Of a stretch of 64,000 nucleotides of DNA, positions 3,100 to 44,000 are shown piece by piece (the stretch's first letter is position 1; the number at the start of each line of letters is the position of its first letter). Origin of the DNA: Protula sp. h YS-2021 (taxonomy: Eukaryota > Annelida > Polychaeta > Sabellida > Serpulidae); contig OX457027.1 in assembly GCA_949752745.1 (NCBI GenBank), positions 17,688,603-17,752,602 on the forward strand, in the 5' to 3' direction. A program made the position numbers and the translations under genes. Under the pieces are notes generated by a model. The model was not told the origin of the DNA, ran no database searches, and saw nothing but the letters and a program-made list of their open reading frames with translations.

Positions 3100-3370
3100 G
3101 TACAGTAGGTCGACAGGCCCCCCGGGGCCTGCCACCACCAGCTTGGCAAGCCCCCCGGGGCCTGCCAAACATCAGGTTGGTAGGCCCCCCCTGGCTCACC
3201 AACCCATGAGCCCCCCCCCCCCCCCCGGCCCAGCAATCTTTCAGCATACACTGTATCTATATGGGTGAGCTAGTCGACAGACCCCCCCCCCGGCTCACCG
3301 GCCCATGAGCCCCCCCCCCCGGCCCATGGTGGTCTTAGCCGCTGACTCACGGCTCACCGCCACATGCCAC
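3100..3370. repeat. C/G-rich repeats including a decayed promoter copy
   Basis: Units with CCCCCCGGGGCCTGCCA (3118-3190) are followed by C-tracts joined to CGGCCCA and CATGAGCC. The end, with GCTCACGGCTCACCG near 3345-3359, matches the block just upstream of the TATA box at 6321, so this looks like a duplicated, decayed version of the 6145-6330 promoter region. No gene is supported here. Confidence 0.5.
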
Positions 3371-4591: not shown

Positions 4592-4825
4592 AAGCCTGGA
4601 TATTTTTAACCCAGAGAGCAAATTCTTTTTGCTTTCTCAGACAGGCAGACGGACAGATTTAGCGTTTCATTTCTCATGCCAGGGTATTTTTAACCCAGAC
4701 AGCAATTTGTTTTGCTTTCTCAGACGGGCAGACGGACAGATTTAGCGTTTCATTTCTCATGCCAGGGTATTTTTAACCCAGGCAGCAATTTGTTTAGCTT
4801 TTTCAGACGGTCAGACGGACAGATG
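4592..4825 (-). repeat. Tandem ~80-bp copies resembling a 3'-end processing block
   Basis: Three copies contain GGTATTTTTAACCCAG; two also hold AGCGTTTCATTTCTCATGCC. On the minus strand each reads as a weak stem (GGGT...ACCC) followed by GAAATGAAACGC. This is the same order as the intact stem-loop plus GAAATGAAACGC block at 4951-4906, so they look like decayed duplicates of the 3' end of the neighbouring minus-strand gene. Confidence 0.5.
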
Positions 4826-4931
4826 GAGCTATAAATCAATGATTTATAGTCCTCTTTTTTTTTTAGCATTTCCCACACTCTCATTCATACTAAGATTGTC
4901 TGATGAAGCGTTTCATTTCGTAATAATGGGA

Positions 4932-4951
4932 GGGCCGCTAAAAAGCGGCCC
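4932..4951 (-). terminator. Histone-like 3' stem-loop after the left outermost gene
   Basis: On the minus strand an 8-bp stem GGGCCGCT/AGCGGCCC encloses a TTTT loop, 62 nt past the stop codon at 5014. The block ACGAAATGAAACGC follows about 9 nt later, closely matching the block after the stem-loop at 20597-20582. The stem is two pairs longer than the histone norm, so this is the least canonical of the three. Confidence 0.6.
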
Positions 4952-5013
4952 TGGAGGGATTTCCGTAGTCTGGTCCTGGTCACTGCCTCTTGTCATCAGT
5001 TCTCCTGCCGCTG

Positions 5014-6069
5014 TCACTGCCTCCCGCCATCGGTTCTCCTGCCGCCGCCACTGGCGCCGCCGCTGACGCCACCGCTGGCACCGCTGCCGCCACCAACCTC
5101 GCCACAGCCACACTTCCGCTTATGTGCCGCAACCGCGGCCCTGCTCGAGGTGAATCCTTTGCCCTGGACACTACAAAAATAATATTGGGACTTCAAAGCG
5201 TCCGGGCATTGCTGCTCATGCAATCTCATTGAATATTCTACCGGAAAGCCAAAATGGCAGAATTCACAATATTTAACATTATCCAAAGTGCCCAAGATTT
5301 GCATGACCTCCTGGAAATCTGACTCTTTTCTAGAGACATCCTCCAGTTTCATCTGAGCAGGTTCGTTGTTGCGGTCAGTGTTTGAAGGTGACTGTATGAG
5401 GCTGACTGTATCCGAAATACTGGCGACAGCGATTGTAAGCTCATCGTCAGGAGCTGGTGGCGGACTGTCCGGTCTTGTAACGGTTGCGCTTGGTGCCGCC
5501 AGCACCTTCCGGACAGTCACATCAGCTTCCTTTTGATTCACTTTCAACGGGGTCGTCATCGTTGACGCAGCGACTTTGACAGGAGTTGCTCTGGCAGGAG
5601 GAGTCTCTGTCATCGTTGCTGCGATCACTCTGGCTGGAGGAGTCTCTGTCATCGTTGCCGCGGTCACTCTGGTCACTCTGGTCACTTCCTGGCAGGGCGA
5701 CGGGTCCCTGGGCGGCGAACGATGGCGTAGTCGCTTATGGCTCTCCTCCGCCGCCCTGCCAAACAGGTTGAACCGTTCCTCTGGTCTGTTCCCAAGGAAA
5801 TTTCTCCACTTTCGAAACAGAAAAGTTTGATATTCAATGTAAATCTCCTCCCAGAAGTTGATATCCTTCGGTGATAGGAAGTAGCGGCCCCGAAGCTCAT
5901 CCGAAAAAAACTCGTCCTTATACAACATGGTTGAATTTCGATGTGCTCGCGTCCGAAACAGAAAAACTTGATATTCTATAAATATCTCCTCCCAGAGGTT
6001 GACATCCCTCGCTGATAGAAAATAGCGACCTCGAAGCTCATCCGAAAAAAACTCGTCCTTGTACTGCAT
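5014..6069 (-). CDS. Outward-facing Polinton protein with 47-aa tandem repeat and zinc fingers
   Basis: This protein has about 351 residues, starting at the ATG at 6069; the open frame continues upstream without another ATG. The N-terminus has a 47-residue segment present twice (141-bp offset) with the core YKDEFFSDELRGRYFLS and a following WEEI-IEYQ. A Thr/Pro/Ala-rich linker has short internal repeats (TMTETPPAR). Two zinc-finger-like segments follow, near residues 267-290 (CEFC...HEQQC) and 300-322 (FC...H-KRKC), and the tail is Gly/Ser-rich. I recognise no named family. The RYFLS...W core resembles the cassette in the small Polinton genes at 7492 and 14926-16345. The gene is divergent from the one at 6372, across a G/C-tract array, and ends in a histone-like stem-loop. 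It may bind nucleic acid; that is inference. Confidence 0.7.
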   Translation of the reverse strand: MQYKDEFFSDELRGRYFLSARDVNLWEEIFIEYQVFLFRTRAHRNSTMLYKDEFFSDELRGRYFLSPKDINFWEEIYIEYQTFLFRKWRNFLGNRPEERFNLFGRAAEESHKRLRHRSPPRDPSPCQEVTRVTRVTAATMTETPPARVIAATMTETPPARATPVKVAASTMTTPLKVNQKEADVTVRKVLAAPSATVTRPDSPPPAPDDELTIAVASISDTVSLIQSPSNTDRNNEPAQMKLEDVSRKESDFQEVMQILGTLDNVKYCEFCHFGFPVEYSMRLHEQQCPDALKSQYYFCSVQGKGFTSSRAAVAAHKRKCGCGEVGGGSGASGGVSGGASGGGRRTDGGRQ

Positions 6070-6144
6070 GATTAAATTTCGATGTGTTCGCTTCAAAGGT
6101 TCAAAGCAGACTGACTGCACACAGACTGCAAATCAAACTGATCG

Positions 6145-6290
6145 ACCCCCCCCCGGCCCAGCTACCTAGTGAGCCCCCCCCCCGGCCCAGCTACCTAGTG
6201 AGCCCCCCCCCGGCCCAGCTACCTAGTGAGCCCCCCCCGGCCCAGCTACCTAGTGAGCCCCCCCCCCCCCCCCCTCCCGGCTACTTTTTA
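6145..6290. repeat. C-tract minisatellite between divergent genes
   Basis: Five to six copies of a 27-29 bp unit: a run of 8-15 C, then GGCCCAGCTACCTAGTGAG. The C-runs mean G-runs on the minus strand, spaced so that G-quadruplexes could form. A different G-tract array fills the other divergent promoter region (21055-21200). Confidence 0.85.
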
Positions 6291-8927: not shown

Positions 8928-10031
8928 ATGTCGACGTGGAAAGACTACTTAACCAATATTTACTTTAAACCTGGTCAACCCGGGGCATTTGCTGGTCCTT
9001 ACAAACTATATCACATATTAAAAAAACATGATCAACCAGTCACTCATTCACAAGTGAAGAAATGGTTACAGGATCAAGATGCCTTCAGTTTACTACAACC
9101 TGTAAAATACAGGTTTAAAAGGCAACGTGTCATTACACGTGGAATTGATGACATGTGGGACATTGATTTAGCTGACATGGGAAACATAGCTTCCTATAAT
9201 GATGACACCCACTTTTTATTAGTTGTCATTGATGTGTTTTCCAAATATTTGTGGGTGCAGCCAATGCCTAATAAATCACATACCAGCGTCATAGAAGCCT
9301 TTCAAAAGATTTTTCATGAAACACAACGAAGACCACGAACTCTAAGGTCAGATAAAGGAACTGAATTTAAAAACAGATGGGTAAAAGCATTTTTGAAGAA
9401 GGAGGGAATACATGCCTATACGACAAAGAATGAAACCAAAGCCAACTTTGCTGAGAGAGTCATTCGTACTCTAAAGGGAATGATGTATCGATATTTCCTT
9501 CATAATCAAACGTATCGATATATGGACATCCTTCCAGACTTAGTGTATAATTATAACCATAGACCTCATGGCTCCCTCCCTAATAAGTATGCTCCTGCAG
9601 ATATTCGTAAAGACATAGAATCGAAAGTGTGGAAGTATATGTATGTAGACAAATTGAAATTAAAACCAAAGAAGAAGAAAAAACCCTACAAATTTAAAAT
9701 TGGTGATCAGGTTCGCATTTCTCACATGAAATATGTATTTCAACGGGATTATCATATAAAGTGGACGCAAGAAGTGTTCATTATCACACATCGTTGTAAG
9801 AAGCAAGGAATACACTTGTATCGTGTGAAAGACTTTTTGGATGAAGATATTGACGGACATTTTTATGAAGAAGAACTGCAGAAAGTGACAAAAGATATTG
9901 AATCAGTCTACAGAATTGAAAAGGTCTTGAAAACACGAAAAAGACGAGGTGTTAAAGAATTATTTGTGAAGTGGTTAGGTTGGCCAAAGAAGTTTAACAG
10001 TTGGGTGAAAGAAACAGATATTCGAAAATGA
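8928..10031 (+). CDS. Polinton integrase (retrovirus-type, chromodomain)
   Basis: The protein has 367 residues and catalyses insertion of the linear element with a 6-bp target duplication. The rve core shows the acidic triad: D80 in WDIDLAD, D142 in RSDKGTEF and E176 in NFAERVIR. A basic Lys-rich linker follows (about 243-252), then an SH3-like region (KIGDQVRISH) and a C-terminal chromodomain (about 328-367) with RIEKVL, VKWLGWP and SWV. The N-terminal region has KPGQPGAFAGPYKLY, usual for Polinton integrases. The frame is intact. The stop overlaps the ATPase start (ATGA at 10028-10031). The chromodomain may steer insertion toward marked chromatin; this copy sits in a satellite, which would fit. 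Confidence 0.96.
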   Translation: MSTWKDYLTNIYFKPGQPGAFAGPYKLYHILKKHDQPVTHSQVKKWLQDQDAFSLLQPVKYRFKRQRVITRGIDDMWDIDLADMGNIASYNDDTHFLLVVIDVFSKYLWVQPMPNKSHTSVIEAFQKIFHETQRRPRTLRSDKGTEFKNRWVKAFLKKEGIHAYTTKNETKANFAERVIRTLKGMMYRYFLHNQTYRYMDILPDLVYNYNHRPHGSLPNKYAPADIRKDIESKVWKYMYVDKLKLKPKKKKKPYKFKIGDQVRISHMKYVFQRDYHIKWTQEVFIITHRCKKQGIHLYRVKDFLDEDIDGHFYEEELQKVTKDIESVYRIEKVLKTRKRRGVKELFVKWLGWPKKFNSWVKETDIRK

Positions 10032-10687
10032 AGCATCCATTCACGTGTTTGGTCTCTGGACCTACAGGCAGTGGTAAAACTTCTCTAGTTAGAGAAATTC
10101 TAGAACAAAAGTTAATTAAACCCTCTCCAAAAACCATTTTATGGCTCTATGCAGCAGATCAGCCTTTGTATAAGGGAATGAAAGGTGTGGAATTTTACCA
10201 AGGCATTCCAGATAACATTGAAGAGCGTTTTAACCCGAAAAAACCAAACTTACTCATCATTGATGACTTAATGACCAAATGTCATAGTGATGAACGCATG
10301 ACACGTCTATTTAGTGTTGGCAGCAGTCATCAAAATCTAAGCATTATTTTTATTGTGCATAATTTGTTTCATCATGGTAGAGAAATGCGTAATATTAGTT
10401 TGAATACACATTACATCATTCTGTTTAAAAATCCTAGAGACAGTCAACAAATAAGTACATTAGCGCGACAAATGTATCCTGGAAAATCTCAATTTCTCAT
10501 AGAAGCCTATCAAGATGCTACCAGCAAACCTCACGGCTATTTATTCATTAATTTGAAGCCGAAGACAAATGATCAACTACGTATTCGTACAGGCATTTTA
10601 CCAAAAGATACACATTACGTATATGTTGATAAGGTGGTGTATGAACAAGAACCAAGTCACTTAACCATTCGCAGCCAAGATGTCTAA
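10028..10687 (+). CDS. Genome-packaging ATPase (FtsK/HerA-type)
   Basis: The protein has 219 residues starting MKHPFTCLVS at the ATG overlapping the integrase stop. Walker A is GPTGSGKT at residues 11-18, and Walker B is NLLIIDDL at 74-81. A polar sensor-like stretch (SIIFIVHNLF) follows near residue 115. Length and order, directly after the integrase, match Polinton and adintovirus ATPases, which pump DNA into capsids. The frame is intact, and it overlaps the next gene by 8 bp. Confidence 0.95.
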   Translation: MKHPFTCLVSGPTGSGKTSLVREILEQKLIKPSPKTILWLYAADQPLYKGMKGVEFYQGIPDNIEERFNPKKPNLLIIDDLMTKCHSDERMTRLFSVGSSHQNLSIIFIVHNLFHHGREMRNISLNTHYIILFKNPRDSQQISTLARQMYPGKSQFLIEAYQDATSKPHGYLFINLKPKTNDQLRIRTGILPKDTHYVYVDKVVYEQEPSHLTIRSQDV

Positions 10688-12964: not shown

Positions 12965-14339
12965 ATGTCTTTAATTCATAATCATTCTTGTGAATGTAGC
13001 CTTTCTCCATTAGAATGGTTTCACATACCACCAACGCAAACTGCTGTAGAAAAAAGTTATAATGTAGACTATCAACCAATGACTACCATTAGAGAGGGTG
13101 CTCCAATAGAATTCTACATTCCTGCGAGTACAGAAGAATATCTAGATTTAAAGAACAGTAAACTCCATATTGTATGTCGCATTGTCAAGGCTGATGGAAC
13201 ACTGTGTGGTGTAGATGATAACGTGTCATGTATCAATGATTTGTTTAATGGGTTATGGTCTAATATTGAATTATTTCTAAATGATCGTTTGATATCACAT
13301 AGTAACAATACCCATGGTTATACTAGCATCATATCTCATCTCATTCATGACTCGGAAGAAAGTCTCCATTCTGAGCGCTCTATGCGTCTCATCTTTAAAG
13401 ATACTGCCGGGTCAATGAATACTTATGAGGTGAAAAGACCTAATCATGAAAGATATGTATCAGGTTTTCATGTAAATATTGAAGGTGGTGATATAGCTGA
13501 AACAGGAAATAATGGTTTACATAATCGCTATTTGTATACACGTCTAAGCCGTGAGTTTGCGCTTACAGGTGGTTTAAGGGTAGATTTGTTTGAGCAGGAT
13601 CGTTATCTTCCCAATGGTGTTAGTATGAAATTACGTTTACATAGACAAAAAGATGGATATGTATTAATGGCTGCAAATAATGGTTTTAAAGTAGAAGTGA
13701 GAGAAGCGTTTTTAACCATTCGCAAAGTGAGGGTTAATCCAGGTATTCAGTTGGGACATGCAGATGCATTGATGAAAAGTCCTGCTAAGTTTATTGTTAA
13801 TAGAAAAGAATGTAAAGTTTTAGCTATTCCAACTGGATTTCAATCTTTTGTGAAAGATAGCATCTTTTTAGGCCAATTACCAAAACGTATTGTCATTGGA
13901 ATGGTTCATAATGAATCCTTTGCTGGAACAGTATTGAGAAATCCATACAATTTTGAACATTTTAATCTTAACTTTATGCAGCTTTACTCTGATGGTGAAC
14001 CAGTCCTATCCAAACCTCTCAAGCTTGATATAAATCAAGGCAAATATCTTGATGCTTTTGAAACTCTTTACAAATCTTTTGATAGATTGGATGGCGAGAA
14101 AAGTTCCATTATAAAACGGGAAGATTGGCCCAGAGGTTATTCGTTGTTTTTCTTTTGACTTAACACCTGATTATGATGGTGCTGATCATTATGCCCTTAT
14201 CAAACATGGGAATTTGAGACTAGAAATGAATTTTGCTGGTGCCTTGCAAAATACAGTCAATGTTATAGTGTATGCTGAGTTTGATAACATTGTTGAAATA
14301 AGTGCAAATCGTAGCATTCAATTCGACTACCAGTCATGA
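12965..14339 (+). pseudogene. Major capsid protein gene with a C-terminal frameshift
   Basis: The gene encodes a double jelly-roll major capsid protein. The start (LSPLEWFHIPPTQTAVEKS, then P-EFYIPAS--YLDL) is typical of the Polinton/adintovirus hexon-like protein. The first frame runs 397 codons to a stop at 14158. Near 14147-14156, in a T-rich run, the family-typical continuation (a D-L-T-P-D motif within the last strand) lies in another frame and stays open to 14339, where its TGA overlaps the protease ATG. The first frame lacks the last ~60 residues, which should form strands of the second jelly roll, so capsid assembly would fail unless the slip is bypassed. A single-base gain (real, or an assembly error in the homopolymer) is simplest. 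Confidence 0.85.
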
Positions 14340-14773
14340 ACACGAAGCAGATAGAAGCCATCCTATCCCATGATGCCACGACAAAAGACTTGTTTCAAGG
14401 TGTGTTTGCCATGGACCAGTTACCATCTTTACAACGCGGTGCCTATGTCATCAACACAGACGATCATGATGAGCCAGGAGAGCATTGGGTGGCAGTATAT
14501 TATGACGAAGACCCTGCAGAATATTTTGACTCTTATGGACTTTTACCTATAGACAGTCGTTTGAATAAGTTTTTAAAGTTTAATTTCATTTATAATTCAG
14601 TTCCATTACAAACACCGATATCCTCTACATGTGGATTTTATTGTATATATTATATAATTCAAAGAGCTCGAGGACATAGTCCTTTTGAAATCATTGATGT
14701 ATTAAGAAGAAGTGATGGTGATTTTGTTGTAAAGGATTTTGTATATAGACATTATAAACCATTATTTTATTGA
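14336..14773 (+). CDS. Adenain-like maturation cysteine protease
   Basis: The protein has 145 residues. The C5-type catalytic set is visible: His50 in GEHWVAVYYD, Asp65 in EYFDSYG, Gln92 in LQTPISSTCG and Cys99 in the same motif followed by FYCIYYI. Order and spacing match adenovirus adenain and Polinton PRO, which cleaves capsid and core precursors. It is somewhat shorter than adenain (about 200 residues) but normal for Polintons. The start overlaps the shifted end of the major capsid frame. AATAAA follows at 14840. Confidence 0.93.
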   Translation: MNTKQIEAILSHDATTKDLFQGVFAMDQLPSLQRGAYVINTDDHDEPGEHWVAVYYDEDPAEYFDSYGLLPIDSRLNKFLKFNFIYNSVPLQTPISSTCGFYCIYYIIQRARGHSPFEIIDVLRRSDGDFVVKDFVYRHYKPLFY

Positions 14774-14839: not shown

Positions 14840-14880
14840 AATAAACAAGACAGTTTTATACAACATTCTTTTTTTTTATT
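14840..14880. terminator. Convergent poly(A) signals
   Basis: AATAAA at 14840-14845 on the plus strand ends the capsid transcripts. TTTATT at 14875-14880 (AATAAA on the minus strand) lies below the last leftward gene. Only about 150 bp separate the two gene groups. Confidence 0.75.
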
Positions 14881-16399: not shown

Positions 16400-16407
16400 C
16401 TTTTATA
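16400..16407 (-). promoter_or_regulatory. TATA box overlapping the polymerase stop codon
   Basis: On the minus strand TATAAAAGGGGG covers the TAA stop (16405-16403) of the polymerase. It lies 55 nt before the PC4-like ATG at 16345. The same TATAAAAGGGGG occurs before the polymerase itself at 20532-20521. Confidence 0.7.
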
Positions 16408-19400
16408 CCACAGCCTTGTAATGTCCATGCGCTAAAGTGGAATAGCCATCATTCAGCACATATCGCTTGTCGTCATATGGGGAGAGGGCTACTTTCCTCA
16501 ACTTCTCCGAGAAAAGCTGGTGACTATGACTTCGGATAATGTGTCCTGTAGCCATCGTTTGAGTTTTCTTGAACAAACTGTCTCTATACTGCACATGTTT
16601 AATGCGTCTTTGACACGCGCGAGTGATGCCTTTGGCCGTACGTTTTTCTTTCCCACCACACAATAAACTGTACATTTTCGGTCTGAGTCCAACAAACTCT
16701 TCAATGGGGACGCCGGCCGTCTCATCCTTCATTTTTCCAAGCACTTTTTTGTTCACGTTGGAATGTAGGAAATGATCCGGCGGATAGTCACTTGTGTCGA
16801 ACAGGTCAGCATCCTGCTGCATATCCTTGTAGATATCTTCCGTTTCTATGTCGTAACATAGACTGTCGGTGTCGCTGAACAATAACTTGGCATTGGGATA
16901 CTTGACCATGATGTAGTTGTAATGAAAGTTGAACATAAGCACTTTGCTGAGGTCGAGAATGGTGAAACCAACTTGAATGGGTTTATCCAGAAGCAAATCC
17001 ACTTTGCGTAAATGTACCGCGGTCAAATCTTCGTTGAAAATTTTGAATTTGTGGAAAGAAGGTTTGGCTACAAGTTTCTTGAACCGCTTTTCCTTGTGAA
17101 CAAGTTCAACATTGATTCGCTTTCTCACATTTTCCATGGTTTTGCCAAACACCGAGTTGTTCATCAGTTTGAAGAAGTCTTTCTCAAATGGGTTCTTGGC
17201 CAATTTTCTCTTTTCCGTGTTCAAGGCAATGTATTTTGCCAACCATTTGCTCTGTTCAAACATGATGGCGCGATGTACTTTAGTGACTTTCAACCCCAGT
17301 GAGACGTACTGTTGCAAATTCCTGTAATGAAGTACATATTTCTTCTTGTCAGACAAGTTAGGAATGAGCTTTTCACTGGATTTCTCTTTCATGTTTAGAT
17401 CTTTCCGCAGCTTCTGACTGTACTCTGACAATTCTTCAACTTTGACACATTTCCGTTCTGGAGCCACTGGGTAGTGATTATGATGATCATGGATTGAATT
17501 TGGATATTCTAAATCCACTTCCAAAATGAATCCAATGTCATCATCTTCATCCACATCCATGAAGTCGAGGGATTCTGGCTCGCTCACCCACATAAATCCT
17601 CTTTGTGGCATGCTTTGTGACATGGCCCAGCCATACAAGTTGTTTGCGTCGAGGTACATCAGGTAGTTGTTTGGTATCTCAGAATTGTATTCTGCTACGT
17701 AGGGATTATTCGCTTTCGCATACTTGTGTGTGATCACAGATATTCCTCCACGTATGCCTTGCTCAACCATTTGGTACATGTCAATGTCATTGATCAATTC
17801 CAACTTCACCTTTGTCGCTTTCAACATTGCATCCCACGACAGTCCTGGTGCTGTATAGTAATGAGCAGGATCCAATTCATACGTGTTGAGGCATACTTGA
17901 CGAAAGTTTTCAAACACGTCAGCTAGTAATAACACATCTGATTTCAGGTACAGGTCGTGGTATTCACCAAATGTTGTACAGTTGAATGTATCCCACACCT
18001 TCTGTGCATGCGCATAATCCTCATCGCTAATGTCCTCTTCGCTAAGCTGACTATAAAACTTATCCTTTGATGGTAGCTGTGTTTCAGCAAACTTGGATGG
18101 TTCGTCCACGTAATCATAGGGGTACACACCCTTTCTCAGCAGCAAATCTTGTTGATCACTGTCGTGAATGTGAGAGGTCATGTTGTAGAAGTTATCTTTC
18201 CCTTCTGCTGCAAGGTTGGATACCAACTTCTGTAGAGAGGTACTCATGAACTGAAAGCTGTCTGTAAATTTCAGATTGCTCAGGGTGAATGCAATATATT
18301 TCTCAATGGTGTTGGGAATGACTGTAATCGTTTCACCTTTGAATTTCCCAATTTCCTCCATGATAAGGTGACTGTCATAGCCTCGCAAATTGTGGAAAAA
18401 TACGGGAATGATAAAAGAATCTTGATCCCCTTGCTGATCTTTTCTAAGACGGAATTGTAAGTTGCATTCATTGTGTGCTGCTCCACGATATTTGCCATTG
18501 ATGTGGTCATGATCTCTCACACGATCTGCTCCTAGAGGTTCATGACAAATGTAGCAATCAGTGGCGTTCTTGAAATTCTCTTTGTCTTCACGAGTCATCA
18601 CCATTTCCTTTGGTTGCTCTAAACCACGTACAATACGATCGCGTTCATTCACCATATGGTCTAAAAAGACCTTTACGGCATTGTCTCCTCGATACACAAC
18701 TGGTGCACGTGTGTTGTACTGGCTCACAACCACATAGGCAAAGCTGTTTGGACGATGATGTTGATACTTGTCTCCTTCTTCATGCTTTTGCGTGAAACAT
18801 TCAAAGTCAGCATAAATCACAAACGGTGCTCGCTGTTGTTTAGCCACATTCTTGAACTTGATGAATGGTTCCTTGGGAAATGATAAACGTTGTGCTCCAT
18901 TCTTGTCACACACTTCACGATGCTTATCTAAAAGCTCTTGTCGCATAAACCCGTGAAGACAGTTGAAGCAATAAAAATGTGCACACTTATGCTTTGATCG
19001 ATAAGCCATAAGTCTGCTAAAACTCTTGATGAGGCAGTAATGCCTTGTCTTGTCATTGCTAATCAGAAGTAAGTTGATTTCTCTGACACTGACGTTTCGA
19101 CTAAGTTGTATTGGAACAACTACATCTTGTTCGTATCCAAACACGTTGATGGCTACATCGTTCTCCTTTTCAAACTTTGGAATGTCAGTAATTGGTGTCG
19201 GAAATGTCATACCCTCTACCTTTAATTCCTTCTCAAATGGTTTGTAGTAATTCACGCGATTTGGGTTGTCGTCATGAGGGTGAAGGTAAGCCAATACTGA
19301 CCATAAGAAACACTTGTTATCATCATTCTTAATGTTTATCACACCCTTTGTTTTCTTCACTTTCTTCGGCAGTGGAATAAAACTACTCGCTTCTAGAGGC

Positions 19401-20458
19401 ATCAACGTAGCTGTATGTACTTCAATGTATAGTATGTTATCCAATACCCAGCCAGAGCCTTGTCGCTCATGTTCGTCAAAATTAGTAAATAATTCTTTAT
19501 AGGCTTCTGGCAAGTCCTGTTCAATATCTGCTGGATTGTATGCTGTATATGTTGGACTGCTGATAAATGCATTATCCACTTGTTCTACCATAACACCTTC
19601 AGCATTTGCTGTCAGTTTCTTGAAACGTGCATGTACGACAATGTACCATTTCATTCCATGGTTTAAGGTCTCCAACAAATGTGCCTTGATACGGTTCTCT
19701 TGCTGTCGCATTTCAAGCAGTAAATCTGATCCATCCTCGGGCTCAAACCGTTTTTCCTGCGCGTTTTCACCAAGACTAACCCTTCTACCTCTCCCTACTT
19801 GTCCTGTCTTTTGTTTCTTTGAAACATGTTCTTGAGACACATTTTCCATCTCAGCTGGTTTACATGCATGTGCCTCAAAAGTATCCATAGATGGAAACTC
19901 TTCATTGCATTCCGCACACTGGACTGGACCGTATGGCCAAATGTCATCTTCTTCCATCTTTTCTCTCTTTGCTCCTTTCCCTTCATGTTTCGCTAAAGTT
20001 TTCATCTCAGCTTTACATGTATGTGCTTCAAAAGTATCCATAGATGGAAATTCTACATTACATTCCGCACACTGAACTGGACCGTATGGCCAAATGTCAT
20101 CTTCTTCCATCTTTTGTCTCTTTGCTCCTTTCCCTTCATGTTTCACTAAAGTTTTCATCTCAGCTTTGCATGTATGTGCTTCAAAAGTATCCATAAATGG
20201 AAATTCTACATTACATTCCGCACACTGAACTGGACCGTATGGCCAAATGTCATCTTCTTCCATCTTTTGTCTCTTTGCTCCTTTCCCTTCATGTTTCACT
20301 AAAGTTTTCATCTCAGCTTTGCATGTATGTGCTTCAAAAGTATCCATAGATGGAAATTCTACATTACATTCCGCACACTGAACTGGACCGTATGGCCAAA
20401 TGTCATCTTCTTCCATCTTTTGTCTCTTTGCTCCTTTCCCATACTCTTCACGTTCCAT
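16403..20458 (-). CDS. Protein-primed DNA polymerase B
   Basis: The protein has 1,351 residues with an uninterrupted frame; it replicates the linear element from protein-bound ends. Exonuclease motifs: DFE in FVIYADFECF (~548), HNLRGYDSH (~683), YLKSDVLLLAD (~834). Polymerase motifs: YLDANNLYGWAM (~933), NNSVFGKTMENV (~1101), DTDSLCYD (~1194). All key acidic residues are present. Between Exo I and Exo II is an endonuclease-VII-like segment CYICHEPLG...DHDHINGKYRGAAHNECN, common in Polinton polymerases. The N-terminus has four 51-residue repeats with C-x2-C...H-x-C fingers, then a region with NKCFLWSVLAYL and RHYCLIK that could be OTU-like, then another finger (FYCFNC...H-x3-C). The TATA box is at 20532 (minus). 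Confidence 0.96.
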   Translation of the reverse strand: MEREEYGKGAKRQKMEEDDIWPYGPVQCAECNVEFPSMDTFEAHTCKAEMKTLVKHEGKGAKRQKMEEDDIWPYGPVQCAECNVEFPFMDTFEAHTCKAEMKTLVKHEGKGAKRQKMEEDDIWPYGPVQCAECNVEFPSMDTFEAHTCKAEMKTLAKHEGKGAKREKMEEDDIWPYGPVQCAECNEEFPSMDTFEAHACKPAEMENVSQEHVSKKQKTGQVGRGRRVSLGENAQEKRFEPEDGSDLLLEMRQQENRIKAHLLETLNHGMKWYIVVHARFKKLTANAEGVMVEQVDNAFISSPTYTAYNPADIEQDLPEAYKELFTNFDEHERQGSGWVLDNILYIEVHTATLMPLEASSFIPLPKKVKKTKGVINIKNDDNKCFLWSVLAYLHPHDDNPNRVNYYKPFEKELKVEGMTFPTPITDIPKFEKENDVAINVFGYEQDVVVPIQLSRNVSVREINLLLISNDKTRHYCLIKSFSRLMAYRSKHKCAHFYCFNCLHGFMRQELLDKHREVCDKNGAQRLSFPKEPFIKFKNVAKQQRAPFVIYADFECFTQKHEEGDKYQHHRPNSFAYVVVSQYNTRAPVVYRGDNAVKVFLDHMVNERDRIVRGLEQPKEMVMTREDKENFKNATDCYICHEPLGADRVRDHDHINGKYRGAAHNECNLQFRLRKDQQGDQDSFIIPVFFHNLRGYDSHLIMEEIGKFKGETITVIPNTIEKYIAFTLSNLKFTDSFQFMSTSLQKLVSNLAAEGKDNFYNMTSHIHDSDQQDLLLRKGVYPYDYVDEPSKFAETQLPSKDKFYSQLSEEDISDEDYAHAQKVWDTFNCTTFGEYHDLYLKSDVLLLADVFENFRQVCLNTYELDPAHYYTAPGLSWDAMLKATKVKLELINDIDMYQMVEQGIRGGISVITHKYAKANNPYVAEYNSEIPNNYLMYLDANNLYGWAMSQSMPQRGFMWVSEPESLDFMDVDEDDDIGFILEVDLEYPNSIHDHHNHYPVAPERKCVKVEELSEYSQKLRKDLNMKEKSSEKLIPNLSDKKKYVLHYRNLQQYVSLGLKVTKVHRAIMFEQSKWLAKYIALNTEKRKLAKNPFEKDFFKLMNNSVFGKTMENVRKRINVELVHKEKRFKKLVAKPSFHKFKIFNEDLTAVHLRKVDLLLDKPIQVGFTILDLSKVLMFNFHYNYIMVKYPNAKLLFSDTDSLCYDIETEDIYKDMQQDADLFDTSDYPPDHFLHSNVNKKVLGKMKDETAGVPIEEFVGLRPKMYSLLCGGKEKRTAKGITRACQRRIKHVQYRDSLFKKTQTMATGHIIRSHSHQLFSEKLRKVALSPYDDKRYVLNDGYSTLAHGHYKAVV
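19826..20437 (-). repeat. Four 153-bp repeats inside the polymerase gene
   Basis: Four in-frame units of 51 codons each encode KGAK(R/E)xKMEEDDIWPYGP, a CAECN-EFPSMDTF zinc-finger core and EMKTL-KHEG. The first three units are almost identical in DNA; the fourth (nearest the catalytic part) is more diverged. This indicates recent in-frame expansion. Confidence 0.9.
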
Positions 20459-20532: not shown

Positions 20533-20581
20533 CACATTCATACATAGACAGAATTTGCGTTTTCATTTCATAGCAGAGGAT

Positions 20582-20597
20582 GGCCCTTAAAAGGGCC
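20582..20597 (-). terminator. Histone-like 3' stem-loop after the Cys-rich gene
   Basis: The minus strand reads GGCCCT-TTTA-AGGGCC, a 6-bp stem and 4-nt loop exactly in the histone-mRNA format, 24 nt past the stop at 20622. The 5' flank is ACTAACATCT, identical to that of the stem-loop at 21864. The 3' flank contains TATGAAATGAAAACGC. No AATAAA lies nearby. Confidence 0.72.
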
Positions 20598-20621: not shown

Positions 20622-20975
20622 TCACCAGCAAGTCGGATTGCCACAGTCGCACTGGTATCTGTAAAACTGTTCCATGGAGAACGGTCGTCGCGAGCACTTG
20701 AACGGATGACGGTTATAGTAGCCAAAGTTTTTTAGTGTCGCTCCACACCACCAGCAGTCCGTGCATGGCTGCGGTCCTGGCAATCTCGCAGTAAACTTGT
20801 ACCAGAGCAGTCCACCGCAAGTTTTGCAGCAGTAATGTCGTGGTGCATTGTGGTGCACCGGGCAGTTGTGTGGTTGACCTGGGTACTCCAACCATACCCA
20901 ACACTTATAACACTCAGTCGTTAGCGTCACTGCCTTGCCGTTTCGCATCACTGTGATTTTACGATTTGTTGACAT
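20622..20975 (-). CDS. Cys/Trp-rich probable zinc-binding Polinton protein
   Basis: The protein has 117 residues starting MSTNRKITVM. About 15 cysteines and several histidines come in pairs: CYKCW, CPVHH, CCKTCGG, CTDCWWCG, CDCGNPTC. Two or three zinc ions could be bound. It is not a recognisable RING or C2H2 protein. It is divergent from the RING gene across the G-tract array. The leader has a TATA box at 21021, and the gene ends in a histone-like stem-loop. The function is unknown. Confidence 0.65.
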   Translation of the reverse strand: MSTNRKITVMRNGKAVTLTTECYKCWVWLEYPGQPHNCPVHHNAPRHYCCKTCGGLLWYKFTARLPGPQPCTDCWWCGATLKNFGYYNRHPFKCSRRPFSMEQFYRYQCDCGNPTCW

Positions 20976-21021: not shown

Positions 21022-21054
21022 CTACTAGCGAACATCCTCGCATTATATGCTGAT

Positions 21055-21200
21055 GGGGGGGGGGGGGGGTCCCGAGTTTAGCTCGGCTGGGGGGGGGGGG
21101 GGGGGGTCCTGAGTTTTGCTCGACTAGGGGGGGGGGTCCCGAGTTTTGCTCCACTAGGGGGGGGGGGGTCCGAGTTTTGCTCCACTAGGGGGGGGGGGGG
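21055..21200. repeat. G-tract minisatellite between divergent genes
   Basis: Five G-runs of 9-18 alternate with TCC-GAGTTT-GCTC-ACTA units of ~30-36 bp. It lies between the TATA boxes at 21012 (minus) and 21222 (plus). The arrangement mirrors the C-tract array at 6145-6290, with an unrelated spacer. Confidence 0.85.
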
Positions 21201-21271: not shown

Positions 21272-21823
21272 ATGGAGTGCTTCTTCGGGTTACATGATGC
21301 TCGCACCATTGCTGAAGTTAGAGAACTTCACCTGCCTGTCACACAGCCACAGACACCGCCAGAAAGAGTCTACTTCTTCCAGCTGCTGCCAGACCCGGTT
21401 CATGGATCCGTCCTGTGCGTGCCCGTCCTGTACAACCGTCAAGTCACGATTGGAAAGAGGCTCAGAGATATAGAGGCTGGTCACTATGAAGAAGCGTTCT
21501 TTAGAACGATGATGCTAGGGGAGTCAATACCTTCGCGGATGGAAGAAGAAGAGTACCCGGCCTGGGGGAGATTCTTCCTCCAGCAAGACTTGGATATTTG
21601 CCCAGGATGTGGGTGTATGATCTCCCCAGACCGGGTGCTGTCTGAGTGCAACCATCAAATGTGTCTGGTCTGCGCGGCGCAGTGGACTGAACTGCTGGCG
21701 CTAAATGACCGCTACTCTGTGAGGTGCTTTACCTGCGGCATGCGAGGGGACCACTTTTTGTTCAACGGGCAACAGCTCACACATTGCAGTAGGCCAGTGC
21801 AGGACATTGTGACATTCTTTTAA
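21272..21823 (+). CDS. RING-finger protein, outward-facing at the right end
   Basis: The protein has 183 residues from MECFFGLHDAR. A C-terminal RING-type finger lies at about residues 110-155: CPGC, then C-NHQMC, C-AAQW and CFTCG, that is C-x2-C...C-x-H-x2-C-x2-C...C-x2-C. The N-terminal ~105 residues have no recognisable domain. RING proteins act as ubiquitin ligases, and viral ones often degrade host defence factors; a similar role here is inference. The gene has its own TATA box and ends in the most canonical of the three histone-like stem-loops. Confidence 0.75.
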   Translation: MECFFGLHDARTIAEVRELHLPVTQPQTPPERVYFFQLLPDPVHGSVLCVPVLYNRQVTIGKRLRDIEAGHYEEAFFRTMMLGESIPSRMEEEEYPAWGRFFLQQDLDICPGCGCMISPDRVLSECNHQMCLVCAAQWTELLALNDRYSVRCFTCGMRGDHFLFNGQQLTHCSRPVQDIVTFF

Positions 21824-21863: not shown

Positions 21864-21879
21864 GGCTCTTTTAAGAGCC
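21864..21879 (+). terminator. Histone-like 3' stem-loop after the RING gene
   Basis: GGCTCT-TTTA-AGAGCC has a 6-bp stem and 4-nt loop in the form of the metazoan histone stem-loop. It lies 40 nt past the stop and is followed by CACCA and then CTGAAATAAGCGC about 11 nt on. The 5' flank ACTAACATCT equals that of the minus-strand stem-loop at 20597. No AATAAA lies between here and the TIR apart from none that I can see. Confidence 0.78.
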
Positions 21880-21969
21880 CACCACTGATACTGAAATAAG
21901 CGCTAATCGTGTCATGGTGTTAGTATGTATGTGTATGCATGAGAGTGTGGGAAATGCTTAAAAAAAAAA

Positions 21970-22432
21970 ATGGTCACCCGTTTGAATGGTTGTTTGAATG
22001 GCCGCCCGTTTGAATGGTTGTTTGAATGGCCGCCCACTCTCCATATTACGTCATTATGACGTTCATATGACGTTCATATGACGTTCATATGACGTTCATA
22101 TGACCTCCATATCACCTCCATATCACCTCCATATGACCTCTATATCACCTCCATATCACCTCCATAACACGTCTAGATCACGTCATAATGACGTCACTGT
22201 TTTAGAAACCCCATGGGGCTTCTAAAACACCACGTGACGTCATTATGACATCCATATGGTAACCATATGGTAACCATATGATAACCATATGATAACCATA
22301 TGACGTCAATATGACGTTAATATGACGTCAATATGACGTCACTGTTTTAGAACCCCCGTGGGGGTTCTAAAACACCATGTGACGTCACTATGACGTCACT
22401 TCCTGTTTTAGAACCCCCGTTTTCACACTACT
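21970..22432 (-). repeat. Right terminal inverted repeat
   Basis: Reverse complement of the left TIR; the core is 22030-22432 (403 bp) with four 11-bp units and seven TGACGTCA sites. CATTCAAAC repeats extend it to about 21970. Homology with the left arm then resumes further in: the reverse complement of about 21930-21965 (AGCATTTCCCACACTCTCAT) equals 4865-4884. Confidence 0.92.
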
Positions 22433-22438
22433 GACACG
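22433..22438 (+). repeat. Target site duplication, right copy (GACACG)
   Basis: Exact copy of 2303-2308, immediately after the CACACTACT terminus. Confidence 0.95.
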
Positions 22439-38014: not shown

Positions 38015-41000
38015 TCAAGGAAACTCACGTCTAAAGGGGGGAAATCTAGGAGGAGGTGGGAGTGGGTACTCAAGCGGAAGTTCATGTAAGGGTCTACCCC
38101 ACTCGTTAATAGCAACATAACTTACTTTTGGTCCACCCTGGTACTTATTACCCCTTCCTCCTCTCGGAGGTTGGCGCATAAATTTCCTTTCGCGGTCGAA
38201 TTCTAAGTCTTCTAATTTTTGCGTGAGCGCCAGTTTCTGCTGAATGGCCATGCGCAGAAGCGAGTTGAGCGTTTTCTTTTCCTCCTCAGCAGCCCGCAGC
38301 TGTCGCTGCAGCTCATCCAGCTGCGTGACGTACTCGTCACAGCGCTGCGCGAACATGGCGCGCAGCGAGGCGAACGCGGCCGCGTCCTCCTTCAGCCCCT
38401 TCAGCTCGTTCCTCAGCCGCGCCATGGTCTCCGTTACGATCGACTTCTCGTTCTCGTACTTCTGCTTGAGATTGGCCAGCGCCACCTCGGCCGTCGACTT
38501 GTTGGCCTTGAGCACGCTGCGTAGCGTCGCGATCTGCTCGCGCTTCGTCGACAGCATGGCCTTGAGCTTGACGATCTGCTCCTGCAGCTCCGTGACGTCA
38601 GAGCTCTGGTCGCTGTCCGTGCGCCGCTGTCGTGCCTGCTCGATCGTGCGCTCGACGGCGCGTCGCAGGTACTTGATCTGATCGTGAATCGTCTCCGTCA
38701 GCTTGTAGCACTCCATCGGATCTCCCTTCGGCTCGGCATCCTGCTCCACCTGCGTGCCATCCTTCTCGGGGGATTTCTCGCGGTCACTCCCTGAATCGTT
38801 GGACTTATCACCCGGGCTTTCCCGGCGACGGAACTTGCGACCCTGGACATGTTCCAGCATGACCCTGTTCGGGGTCTCACCATTCACCTCACAGACCAAG
38901 TGGTAAATCGTGGCAAGTTCTTCGGTCACTTTGATGAGCTCGTCAGACGTCGTATTTAGGCTACCCGTGCTTTCTCCAACGGCCTAAACAGAGAAAAATG
39001 AACAACCGATAACCAATGTTCAGTTGTCTCCCGTTATCCCGACTTCACTCTGCCTAACTATACTCTACTCAATTTACACACACAGGCAGGACCACATCTG
39101 TGCCCTCTTTTTCGTTTTGTTTTTCTTCAATAGACTCAAAGGTAATGGCAAAGGTTGAACATCAAGTTACGCTGCACCTTGGAAAAAAATGTTGAAAAAA
39201 TATGTCCCGACAATGATAAAAATACGCCACAGAGATCACGCTGTTCATAATTTTTTGGCTGTGAGGTGTGACAACAAGACAGCCTTTTCAGACAGGGCGA
39301 CGGCAAGGGAGAAACACGACGCTTCTCCATACACGCGTATCAATATAACTTGCATGCTGAGGTTAATCAACAACAGCAGATTTTGGTTCTGGCCCCCTTC
39401 CCCCCAAACAAACCGCGTATAAACTGGCGGCCCAATGACGTGTCAGTTAATCGGGTAGAAATGGCCAACATAAATATCTTTTTGCCCAACATATATATCT
39501 TTTACATAAACAATTTCTCAAGCAAACGTTTTCAGATTTTTTTTAACCTTTCCCTGTTAAAGTTTTGACCTATCATACGGTTACCCCTCAATGTCAAACA
39601 ACACACCGAGTTAATTCACCAGAAAATGCTTGGTGTATTTTAAAGCACCCCGTATGAATTTCCCAGAACAGTGGTTGGGCCAGTGATGTGGGTATTTCAT
39701 CACAGCTTTGTCGGTGTCTAGCGTAAGCATAAAACAGTATCTCACCTCGGTCAGGTTCTTTATGGTCTCCTCATACCCGACTACTTTATTTCTGAGTTTC
39801 ATCACCTCGTCTTTCAGATCTGAGTCATCGACTTTGTCTGCAGAAACCTGTAGCCAGAAACAAGCAACAGCTGACAAAATCACTAACACTTGTATTTTAC
39901 ATCTTTGACACTGTCGAAGAAAAAACTATTATTGAAATATGTACGTTTCATTCGCAGCTATTTTCAATCAATCTGCCTGTCTGATAAAAACAAGTATGTC
40001 AGTAAAACTGACTAAGTCCCCCGCCGGAGTGCAATCACAAGATTTCAAGACATTTCGAGGTCTGACTAAGTCAAGTGGCCGCTTTCTCTTCCGACGCCGA
40101 AACCTATACCCAGGTGCACAACTAAAGCGTTTGTGCTATGCATATGTTACAGGCAAACTGTCAAATCAGGCAGATTATAATCTGACTGAAAATTTCAGGC
40201 AGATTATAAAATTCCTGGTTCGACCAGGCACATTGTAATCTGCCTAAAATTTTTAGGCAGATTGTAATCTGCCTGATTTTGGAGCCTGAAAATTTGACAA
40301 TTTGCCTGAAATGAAAGGATCGTTTGTAATCATGATCCCCCCCCATGCGATTAGGTTGTTGTCTATTCAAATATGTGATCGTAGGAATAAAAGGCGATTG
40401 ATGTAGTCAATTGCAATTAAATTTGAGTGAACAATGGGTCAGCTCGCGCGTTTCATGCGATTTGATTGCCATGTATTTTCTATTGTTACTTTTATCGCAT
40501 GTCTTCATTGACAACTGCAGCAATGTATTTAAATGCAATTGTATCGATCTATGGGGTTTTTGAAATTGCAATTAAACGCACATATTTGTTTCTATTTATT
40601 GTACTAGCTAAAAAAATAAATATGTAACACTGTAACTGTATTTATCAGGTGTCAACTTTTCACCCCCTATTTATACTGTACAGTGTACTGTACATTGCTG
40701 ATCTCAAAATACAATACATCATAGAGGTGTGGGGGTGGATTGAGATTTATATCATTGCACTTATTTTATTAAGAAATTGCAATTTCCAATTGCATTCAAT
40801 CATATCAATACAATTGTAAAAGTCTGATCAATCAAGACATAAAACAAAGCAATCACTAAAAATGTCGCGCATTTACTTAATCAAGAAATTGCAATTAGAA
40901 ATTGCATTTAAACATATCAACAGCATTATGCAGGTGTAATAACTCAAGGTATAAAAGAAAGCAAGTGGTAAACAAATGACATTAGACGAACGGGCATACT

Positions 41001-44000
41001 GACCACTCACATGTATTTAATTGCAATTAGACACATCAATCGCTTTTTATCCCTACGATTACATATTAGATTAATGACAACCAAATCCCATAAAACGCAT
41101 CAGTAGATGCTAAAAAAGCTAGTGTTATGCATGATCACAACCGAATATTTTCGTCTATTTAATTGTAATTGATCATATCAATTGCTTTTCATTCTTACGT
41201 GCACATATTTAAATAGGTAACAACCAAATCGCATGAAACAGCCGGTTATGAATGGGGTGGTTCATGATTACAAACGTTCCTTTCATTTCAGGCAAATTGT
41301 CAAATTTTCAGGCTCCAAAATCAGGCAGATTACAATCTGCCTAAAAATTTCAGGCAGATTACAATGTGCCTGGTTGAACCAGGAATTTTACAATCTGCCT
41401 GAAATTTTCAGGCAGATTATAATTTGCCTGATTTGACAGTTTGCCTGTAACACATATACAAGGTGAAAAGAAAATTCCTTCCAATAGCTCTCCAGATCTG
41501 TCGCGGAAACGACAGCCTATCCCACCATTTCAAGGTCTGACATTTTCGGATTTTGGACGTAGGTCAAATTTTTCGGCCAACGGCAAAACCTATACCCAGG
41601 TGCACAACTAGAGCGTTTATTCTATGCATGTGCAAGATTTGAATGAAATAATACCCCCCCCCCCAGCGGTTCTTGAGATCTGTCGCGGAAAGGACATCCT
41701 ATCCCACCATTTCAAGGTCTGACATTTTCGGATTTTGGACGAAGTCTTAGGCCAAATTTTTCGACCGACAGTAAAACTATACCGTGGTGAACAACTGCAA
41801 CCCTCATTCTATGCATGTGCAAGGTTTAAATGACATATCTCCAGTAGTTCTTGAGATCTGTCGCGGAAACGACACCCTATGCCAAATGTTGACGGACAGA
41901 CGGATGGACCCGAATGCAATAGTCCCCCGCTCCGCGCTACGCGACGGCGGGGGACTAAAAAACATAGCTGTCACAGAAGATATAAACGCATTAATTATAG
42001 AGGTAATGAATGTAGAAAAATAACTTACAGTGTTCTCTAAAGATTTAATCTGGTCTTGAAGTTCCGAAATTTGCTTGAGTGCAGCTGCATAGCTCAACTC
42101 CTTTTTCTTCAAGTTTTTCTTCATCTCCAGAATCGTTGGATCTGCTGTCGAATCTGTTTCATCCATATCATCCTCAATATCATTGGCGAAGTCAACCCCT
42201 GGGGGCAGTGACGTCATAGACGATATGTGTGCTTTCATTTGGGCAATCTTTTCTTTTTGTTCCTCGATTTCGCGCTTGGCGGCGTCGAGAGAGGTTTGCG
42301 TGCTCTCTAGCACGCCGCGTAGACCTCCCTTCTCGTTCTCCGCTTCCTCGAGGAGCTTCTCCAACTTGCGAACTTCATTGACGTGAATCTCCGAGAAAAG
42401 ATCACCCACTGGCGAACTGCCCAATTTGTCACCGGAATTTCCGCTCGAATTAAACTGATCTGGTGCTTTAAAATCGGCTTCGATTTTTTTCAAAGCTGCA
42501 TTTTCGCTCGATTCCTGGTCCTCATTGTGCGCCTCCCTTCTGTTACCAAGGTCGAATCCCAGCCCTAAACTTGCGAGGCTCTGCAGATTGAAGATGGATT
42601 CTGACGTCACACGCTGATCGAGTTCCTTTTTTAGCGCATGTTTCTGTTCGCGCTCTTGCTGCAAAGATTCCAATGCCTCCTCGAGATTTTTCTCCACAAT
42701 TTGTTTTAGTTTCGCAAGCTCCAGAATTTCGCTGTTGAGTTCCTCTAAATCTTCCTTGAGACGTTTGCTTTCTAATTTCATAGCTTCATAGTCCACTTGG
42801 TTTTGCTTCAACTGTAGAACCTGGAATCGTAAACACAAAAAATGCCCAATGAGACACTTAACGTTACAGTTAAGACCATGTACAAGACCATGTACAAGAC
42901 CATGAACAAGACCATAACAAAACCATGTACAAGAGCATTACAAACAAAAACGTAACTGATTTCCTACGGATGCACTGATAAAACTGTATAAGCACAGGGC
43001 AAGACCTCTACCAACTAAATTTATGATAAATTTCAGCCCAGCCTCTTACGGCAATAAATACACACCTGCTGTACGTCATAAGTTTATTCCTTTTTATCGG
43101 GAAATAAAAAGCACCTGTTTCTGCAGCTGTATATTTTCTTCTTCCAGCTCTGAGCAGTCGGCTAAGTTACGCGTCTCACGAAATTTGAGTTCTTTAATTT
43201 CCTTTTTATGCTGCAGTCTTTGTGCTTCCAGGTCGTCGACTTGATGCGTGAGGTCACTTGTAAGCTGACCGAGGCGCTCGTTTTCTGAAGCGAGTCTGGA
43301 ACATATTTGGCAACCTTATTGCTACTCTTTACCTTGAACTGTTACTACATAGCCGCAGTCCCGGTTACTTATTTGCATTTTTGAAATTAGAAAAACATCG
43401 ACGTAATATCATAACGGAAGTACTTTCTTGTTTGTTATTTGATTTACATTTTAGAACAGCACACTTACCTTTCAGCATTTTGACGCGTGTGTTTTAATTC
43501 TGCCTCTAAGTCAGAAATATTTTCCACCAGTTGAGCCTCCCGAATGGCAGACTCCTGTAGAAGACTCTCCTCCGCATGCACGCCGGCTTGGGTGGCTTTC
43601 TTCTGGGTTTGCTGCACCTGACTGAAACTCTGTAAGAGAAAAAAACATAGGTTTAAAAAAATCCAGCCAAGCAGTGAAAATAGCGACCGACATATTTTTG
43701 CTTTGAACCAAGAACACGCGTGTGCTTCCTGTGTGGATTCTTAAAGAAACTGAGCATCAAACTGCACATAAACAGGGAAAGTCACGTAGCCGACCGAGGC
43801 TACCTGACTTTCCTACTTATAACCAAGCTGTTATTTGACAACAAGCAAACATCTACGAGTAGTACCGGTAGTTTAATGTTAGGGCTCTTTCATCACTATT
43901 CTCCATACGGCGGACACCAAACCACCGTCTTTTTACCAATTTCATTCTTTTGTTGTAGGACCCCGTAAAACTTCCTCATTGATTGGGCGATTAACATTTT

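Follow-up and report, generated by a model that had tools for sequence, protein, structure and literature searches.

Replication-dependent histone genes of metazoans end in a stem-loop with a 6-bp stem and a 4-nt loop (consensus GGYYYUUYUNARRRCC). The stem is preceded by an A-rich flank of the CCAAA type, and cleavage takes place about 5 nt behind it. To our knowledge, 3' ends of this type are nearly private to these genes. As described in PMC7614891, SLBP binds the stem-loop in animals, U7 snRNA pairs with a downstream element (HDE), cleavage behind the stem is carried out by CPSF73 within the histone cleavage complex, and SLBP is upregulated before S phase. In the titles and beginnings of abstracts covered, few of them from subscription journals, histone-type 3' ends were not described in Polintons, adintoviruses or other viral genes. 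In the portions of text covered, PMC12803260 makes no mention of virus, transpos, U7 snRNA or downstream element; PMC11071296 describes a viral histone-like protein and names an integrase with a C-terminal chromodomain as an adintovirus feature, with no mention of a stem-loop; PMC12220804 and PMC5799277 contain the words Polinton, histone and stem-loop; and in PMC6713331 the searched terms matched in the reference list only.

A Polinton/adintovirus-like element occupies positions 2309 to 22432 of the 64-kb stretch of DNA analysed here (the window). Like Polintons/Mavericks, it has long terminal inverted repeats (2309-2686 and 22055-22432; 378-nt arms, 99% identical/complementary) and a 6-bp target duplication, GACACG, directly beyond both element ends (2303-2308 and 22433-22438). 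Its gene content is that of Polintons/Mavericks and adintoviruses, comprising an rve integrase with chromodomain, an ATPase, an adenovirus-type protease, a putative polymerase and a putative capsid cluster. In Polintons the last two are a protein-primed DNA polymerase B and a double jelly-roll capsid protein. The 1351-aa ORF at 16403..20458 (-) is taken to be DNA polymerase B on the basis of motifs and homology. The ORF at 12965..14158 (+) presumably encodes the major capsid protein, judged by position, by likeness and by a 64% identical homolog in family B (see below). Pfam applied to the window ORFs gave neither a polymerase nor a capsid match, and comparison of the capsid candidate with PDB yielded nothing past one chance-level match. 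Pfam matches were obtained for the integrase with its C-terminal chromodomain (8928..10031, +; rve 1.5e-11, Chromo 3.2e-7), for the packaging ATPase (10028..10687, +; Adeno_IVa2 2.6e-8, Pox_A32 6e-6, with the ORF taken from 10001) and for the protease (14336..14773, +; Peptidase_C5 2.2e-4); together with the long inverted repeats and the 6-bp target duplication, these three proteins identify the element as a Polinton. The N-terminal part of the polymerase (19800-20458, -) contains approximately four tandem Cys/His finger-like repeat units (GKGAKRQKMEEDDIWPYGPVQCAEC...).

Three further ORFs are central to this work. The RING gene (21272..21823, +; 183 aa) encodes a protein with a weak RING-like Cys/His pattern, for which the Pfam scores were below the cut-off (IBR 0.027, zf-C3HC4 0.042). 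The CYS gene (20622..20975, -; 117 aa) encodes a small, Cys-rich protein. The left-end gene (5014..6069, -) encodes a protein of 351 aa. The RING and CYS genes are each followed by a hairpin of the exact 6-bp/4-nt histone format, present just as the sequence-only reading had described them: GGCTCTTTTAAGAGCC at 21864..21879 (+), 40 nt past the RING stop (21823), and GGCCCTTTTAAGGGCC at 20582..20597 (-), 24 nt past the CYS stop (20622). They are the only two matches to the pattern GGYYYTTYTNARRRCC in the 64-kb window. A second-order Markov model predicts 0.004 perfect stem-loops per window and 0.001 in the element, and with two such stem-loops found, a chance palindrome was ruled out. Rfam Histone3 (RF00032) scored them at 25.3 and 23.2 bits, under the 34-bit gathering score, and nothing in the window was returned at the gathering threshold. 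A third hairpin, AGGGCCGCT-TTTT-AGCGGCCCT, follows the left-end gene (4931..4952, -). It had been reported at 4951 with a TTTT loop and a stem of 8 bp; the loop is as reported, but the stem comprises 9 bp and the hairpin lies outside the histone consensus, which is thus fitted by two of the three hairpins in the window.

Each of the three hairpins is followed after 11-13 nt by a downstream block. Behind the RING stem-loop an HDE-like block, GAAATAAGCGC, starts after 13 nt (21893..21903, +), and its GAAATAAGC is also present in the host H1 gene L009. The CYS stem-loop is followed after 12 nt by the variant block GAAATGAAAACGC (20557..20569, -), and the left-end hairpin after 11 nt by GAAATGAAACGC (4908..4919, -). 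The sequence of the block differs among the three; the upstream flank ACTAACATCT, said to be shared, is common to two of the three hairpins but not to all of them. Downstream of the left-end hairpin, further GAAATGAAACGC blocks were seen at 4756 and 4673 (-), each behind a hairpin-like sequence GGGTTAAAAATACCC; these repeats may be decayed or spare 3' ends. Elsewhere in the window, inverted-repeat sequences at 40190-41450 and 44860-44930 matched miRNA families. As these matches were below gathering scores and were judged to be repeat-derived, a miRNA identity was rejected; the sequences are probably small transposons.

The genome of the host, presumably an animal in view of its H1 genes and histone signals, provided a direct comparison. 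Rfam Histone3 found at least 73 places; as scoring was limited to 75 candidates, this is a lower bound, and the list may lack core histone genes. Five of the places are histone H1 genes (L001, L002, L009, L011, L012), with a Pfam Linker_histone match (2e-27) in the one H1 gene scanned. The H1 3' ends consist of GGCCCTTCTAAGGGCC or GGCCCTTCTCAGGGCC, then ACCCA, then GAAATAAGC or AAAATAAGC 12 nt past the stem. Thus, the order GGCCCTTCTAAGGGCC-ACCCAATGTTCC-GAAATAAGC in H1 genes corresponds to GGCTCTTTTAAGAGCC-ACCCACTAATAC-GAAATAAGC in most family-A RING copies, with a spacing of 12 nt in both, and in many RING copies ACCCA lies directly past the stem, as in histone mRNA ends. The two groups differ upstream of the stem. 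H1 genes, the only host genes compared, carry TAAA or CAAA, whereas in most Polinton hairpins the A-rich flank is replaced by sequences such as CTCC or TTTC. They also differ in what is encoded: Pfam detected no histone domain in the seven hairpin-gene proteins scanned, and the hairpin genes of the Polintons are non-histone genes with Cys-rich and RING-like products.

Among the other 68 places listed, 40 were read and 28 are outside the count; 38 of the 40 are Polinton gene ends. Fifty-four of the 68 score equally, and the 26 of these that were read are all the 3' end of one family-B RING-like gene. They are near-copies with nine distinct 120-nt versions, and as the equal-scoring matches are near-identical where read, all 54 were counted as one case. 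The remaining places read are 12 other Polinton copies, one H2B-like pseudogene and one place in L040. The pseudogene match (L021/L041) has a broken reading frame; at approximately 5870-6250 (-) of L041 it keeps a canonical stem-loop with the upstream flank TTCTC, as in some Polinton hairpins. The match in L040 (L013; 5037, +) is a canonical stem-loop with a AAAATAAGC block 12 nt behind it; no gene was recognised in front of it, and approximately 4.2 kb away there is a RING homolog.

The sequence-only reading had made its proposal dependent on conservation of the hairpin in related elements. Within this genome, homologous genes of diverged Polintons keep both hairpin and block, the extent of this conservation being biased upward because the related loci were mostly chosen by their Rfam stem-loop match. 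Family B (L027, L029) is sufficiently diverged from the window element (polymerase 53-69%, capsid 64%, integrase 69%, ATPase 76% identical) to rule out that conservation was seen only among near-identical copies. Three family-B genes have histone-type stem-loops: a CYS homolog (62% identical; loop TTTC), a RING-like gene (35-37% identical over approximately 80 residues; loop TATA), whose perfectly palindromic 16-mer occurs on either strand, and a 105-aa gene with no counterpart among the window genes (loop TTTT), whose stem-loop is kept in six of six copies (L003-L008). A second family-B RING-like gene, located just before the polymerase (L027:7096-7383), is without hairpin. Six family-A loci that had been fetched for their RING-side hairpin proved by tblastn to contain a CYS gene as well. 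Four of these genes (L030, L031, L032, L036) have a hairpin with complete pairing, and in the other two (L033, L039) the hairpin is altered. In L035, a paired hairpin with one U-G pair stands behind a shortened CYS remnant that tblastn misses, and L036 has kept the RING-side hairpin at a site where tblastn finds no RING gene.

Most Polinton copies carry behind the stop a stem-loop that fits the 16-nt consensus of metazoan histone mRNA ends. Some members deviate in having a long stem, TATA as the loop or a block that diverges. The RING hairpins of L034 and L040, for example, have longer stems outside the consensus and a block of the same kind. Sixteen of the 22 tabulated Polinton 16-mers, nine of them distinct, were aligned. 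All are fully paired, and 15 conform to the consensus; the one that does not belongs to the family-B RING-like gene, with its TATA loop. Pair 4 varies between C-G, U-A and (once) U-G, and the other pairs are invariant among the nine distinct 16-mers. The covariation score was reached by 25 of 500 shuffles, a modest formal support because the change is confined to one pair.

The downstream block was scored against GAAATAAGC as the best of 27 offsets, for which reason a match of 5-6/9 is about what chance gives. A match of 8-9/9 was obtained for 13 of the 22 tabulated Polinton stem-loops and for all four tabulated H1 genes. By group, it was found in 9/11 RING-side stem-loops of family A, in 4/4 of family B and in 0/7 CYS stem-loops of family A, the blocks of the latter seven matching at 6-7/9 only; five ends lacking the 16-nt core (the left-end gene of the window, RING of L034 and L040, CYS of L033 and L039) are outside this table. 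Among 21 perfect stem-loop readings, which include the antisense strand of one palindrome, 10 have an exact AAATAAGC starting no more than 14 nt past the stem, against a background of 7e-5 per base in the same loci. With the H1 genes as comparison, the block is by its sequence a putative HDE like the host's own, about 12 nt downstream.

For the U7 snRNA itself, an Rfam search of the genome gave no match, nor did control genomes. A U7 pattern search gave a single match in 863 Mb (C8:20145005-20145028, L043) and none with the reversed pattern as control. The 3' hairpin of this candidate is weak and Rfam U7 does not match it, which makes it doubtful as the host U7 gene. Pairing of the window CYS block with it was equalled by 56 of 300 shuffles, and its pairing with AAATAAGC is circular because pairing was built into the pattern search.

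The signals observed behind these Polinton genes, with their order, strand, spacing, conservation within this genome and likeness to host H1 signals, are most simply read as U7/SLBP-type processing, because they match those of the host H1 genes. We consider it very likely that the host U7/SLBP machinery cuts these transcripts to give short, non-polyadenylated, S-phase-biased mRNAs; it is from the sequence signals that we infer cleavage, absence of a tail, S-phase bias, early timing and the functions of the proteins. Conservation and the signal pair of the H1 genes thus support the idea put forward in the sequence-only reading, namely that a subset of Polinton genes has SLBP/U7-type ends, with U7 and SLBP as the presumed factors. 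The case is weaker for the left-end hairpin at 4931-4952 and for GAAATGAAAACGC-type blocks. In the proposed mechanism, the genes of the element would have 3' ends of two types. Ordinary poly(A) signals would close the capsid, integrase and polymerase-side clusters, and CYS, RING and perhaps the left-end gene would end in a histone-type stem-loop plus HDE that may have been copied from, or have converged on, those of host histone genes. Recognition of the loop would fall to host SLBP and base-pairing with the block to host U7 snRNP, and cleavage by the histone cleavage complex would occur about 5 nt past the stem. The resulting mRNAs, short, intronless and non-polyadenylated, would be stable and well translated mainly at high SLBP, in S phase, and the element would in this way restrict these proteins, which are probably early and regulatory, to cells engaged in DNA replication. 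An early regulatory role is suggested because it would suit small Cys-rich, RING-like proteins encoded near the element ends.

Poly(A) signals distinguish the two kinds of gene end. In the window, AATAAA was found where it had been reported for the other gene clusters, 66, 45 and 39 nt past the stops at 14773 (+), 14926 (-) and 8796 (+), and the one at 14840 closes the protease-side cluster. Across copies, AATAAA is present within approximately 130 nt at 2 of 25 hairpin-gene ends versus 8 of 12 other cluster ends, counts for which tblastn limits defined some of the gene ends, the CYS end of L035 is a remnant and distances may be off by a few bases, or by more in broken copies. AATAAA is missing from four of the other cluster ends, namely the two of family B (L029), that of L037 and that of L030, where the sequence ends after 3 nt; as neither family-B end has AATAAA within 130 nt, the contrast is one seen in family A. 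These data bear on a different reading, in which SLBP or a relative binds the hairpin for export, stability or translation while the 3' end arises mainly by downstream poly(A) cleavage, the histone signals acting as a modulator. It would be in keeping with the AATAAA located 115 nt past the stop of a family-B gene (L027:5263-5580), with the poor match of the family-A CYS block to GAAATAAGC and with the polyadenylated transcripts that replication-dependent histone genes can also yield, as stated in PMC3661734. We regard it as rather unlikely, given that 23 of the 25 hairpin-gene ends are without AATAAA in this range (one of them, L033 RING, has ATTAAA right at the stop), that the only other AATAAA, at L034 CYS, overlaps the block itself, and that the block is retained at histone spacing.

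The close similarity to host H1 3' ends and the altered hairpins of L033 and L039 might also be explained by a passive relic, that is, a histone 3' end captured by an ancestral Polinton and carried along without function. Such a relic would hardly be expected behind several genes without detected mutual homology in two diverged families, or to keep its pairing through T-A/C-G switches in more variable surroundings, and we consider this origin very improbable. Least probable of all is that the palindrome acts as DNA, in replication, packaging or protein binding, and not as RNA. The hairpin genes of the window lie towards both element ends, where replication would presumably start, and the palindromic family-B RING 16-mer reads the same on both strands; against this, hairpins are usually located 16 to approximately 61 nt behind stops in the sense of the gene, and both the T-rich loop and the downstream block are oriented by the gene.

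A relative outside this genome was found in IMG/VR. The environmental Polinton-like contig L064 (IMGVR_UViG_3300028392_002905) encodes a 1286-aa polymerase homolog 40-43% identical to that of the window and an rve integrase 28% identical. It was the sole relative in the polymerase alignment; single capsid or polymerase proteins, and alignments of ATPase or integrase, gave none. In the 14,823 of 17,398 bases examined of this distant contig there was no consensus stem-loop and no Histone3 match up to E 5, and a search of IMG/VR for the stem-loop plus HDE pattern gave 0 matches. Unlike Polintons and adintoviruses as described in the literature covered, the element studied here has part of its genes equipped with histone-type 3' ends. 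It may therefore depend, during part of its life cycle, on machinery that the host uses for histone messages. If this is true, a parasite has taken over a cell-cycle-gated mRNA pathway for a number of non-histone genes, and has done so across many copies and no fewer than two families. The signals also offer a hypothesis, open to testing, for how Polintons might keep step with S phase. We give an even chance to the broader proposal that the Polintons of this animal are a class that places defined small regulatory genes under the host histone 3'-end machinery and thereby couples their expression to S phase, that they hold at least half of the Rfam-scored histone-type 3' ends here, and that they may compete with histone pre-mRNAs for SLBP and U7 snRNP. 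In practical terms, mobile elements can dominate histone stem-loop annotation, and some Polinton transcripts may escape poly(A)-selected RNA data.

Two observations concern the organisation of the element ends. The region separating the divergent CYS and RING genes (21050-21200) contains long G-tract repeats, and C-tract counterparts are located at 3185-3226 near the left end and at 6231-6271 before ORF6372. In four other copies (L037, L038, L039, L042), a RING gene with its stem-loop is found beside the ORF6372 homolog, in the slot that the left-end gene occupies in the window; this position is perhaps a modular end-gene slot.
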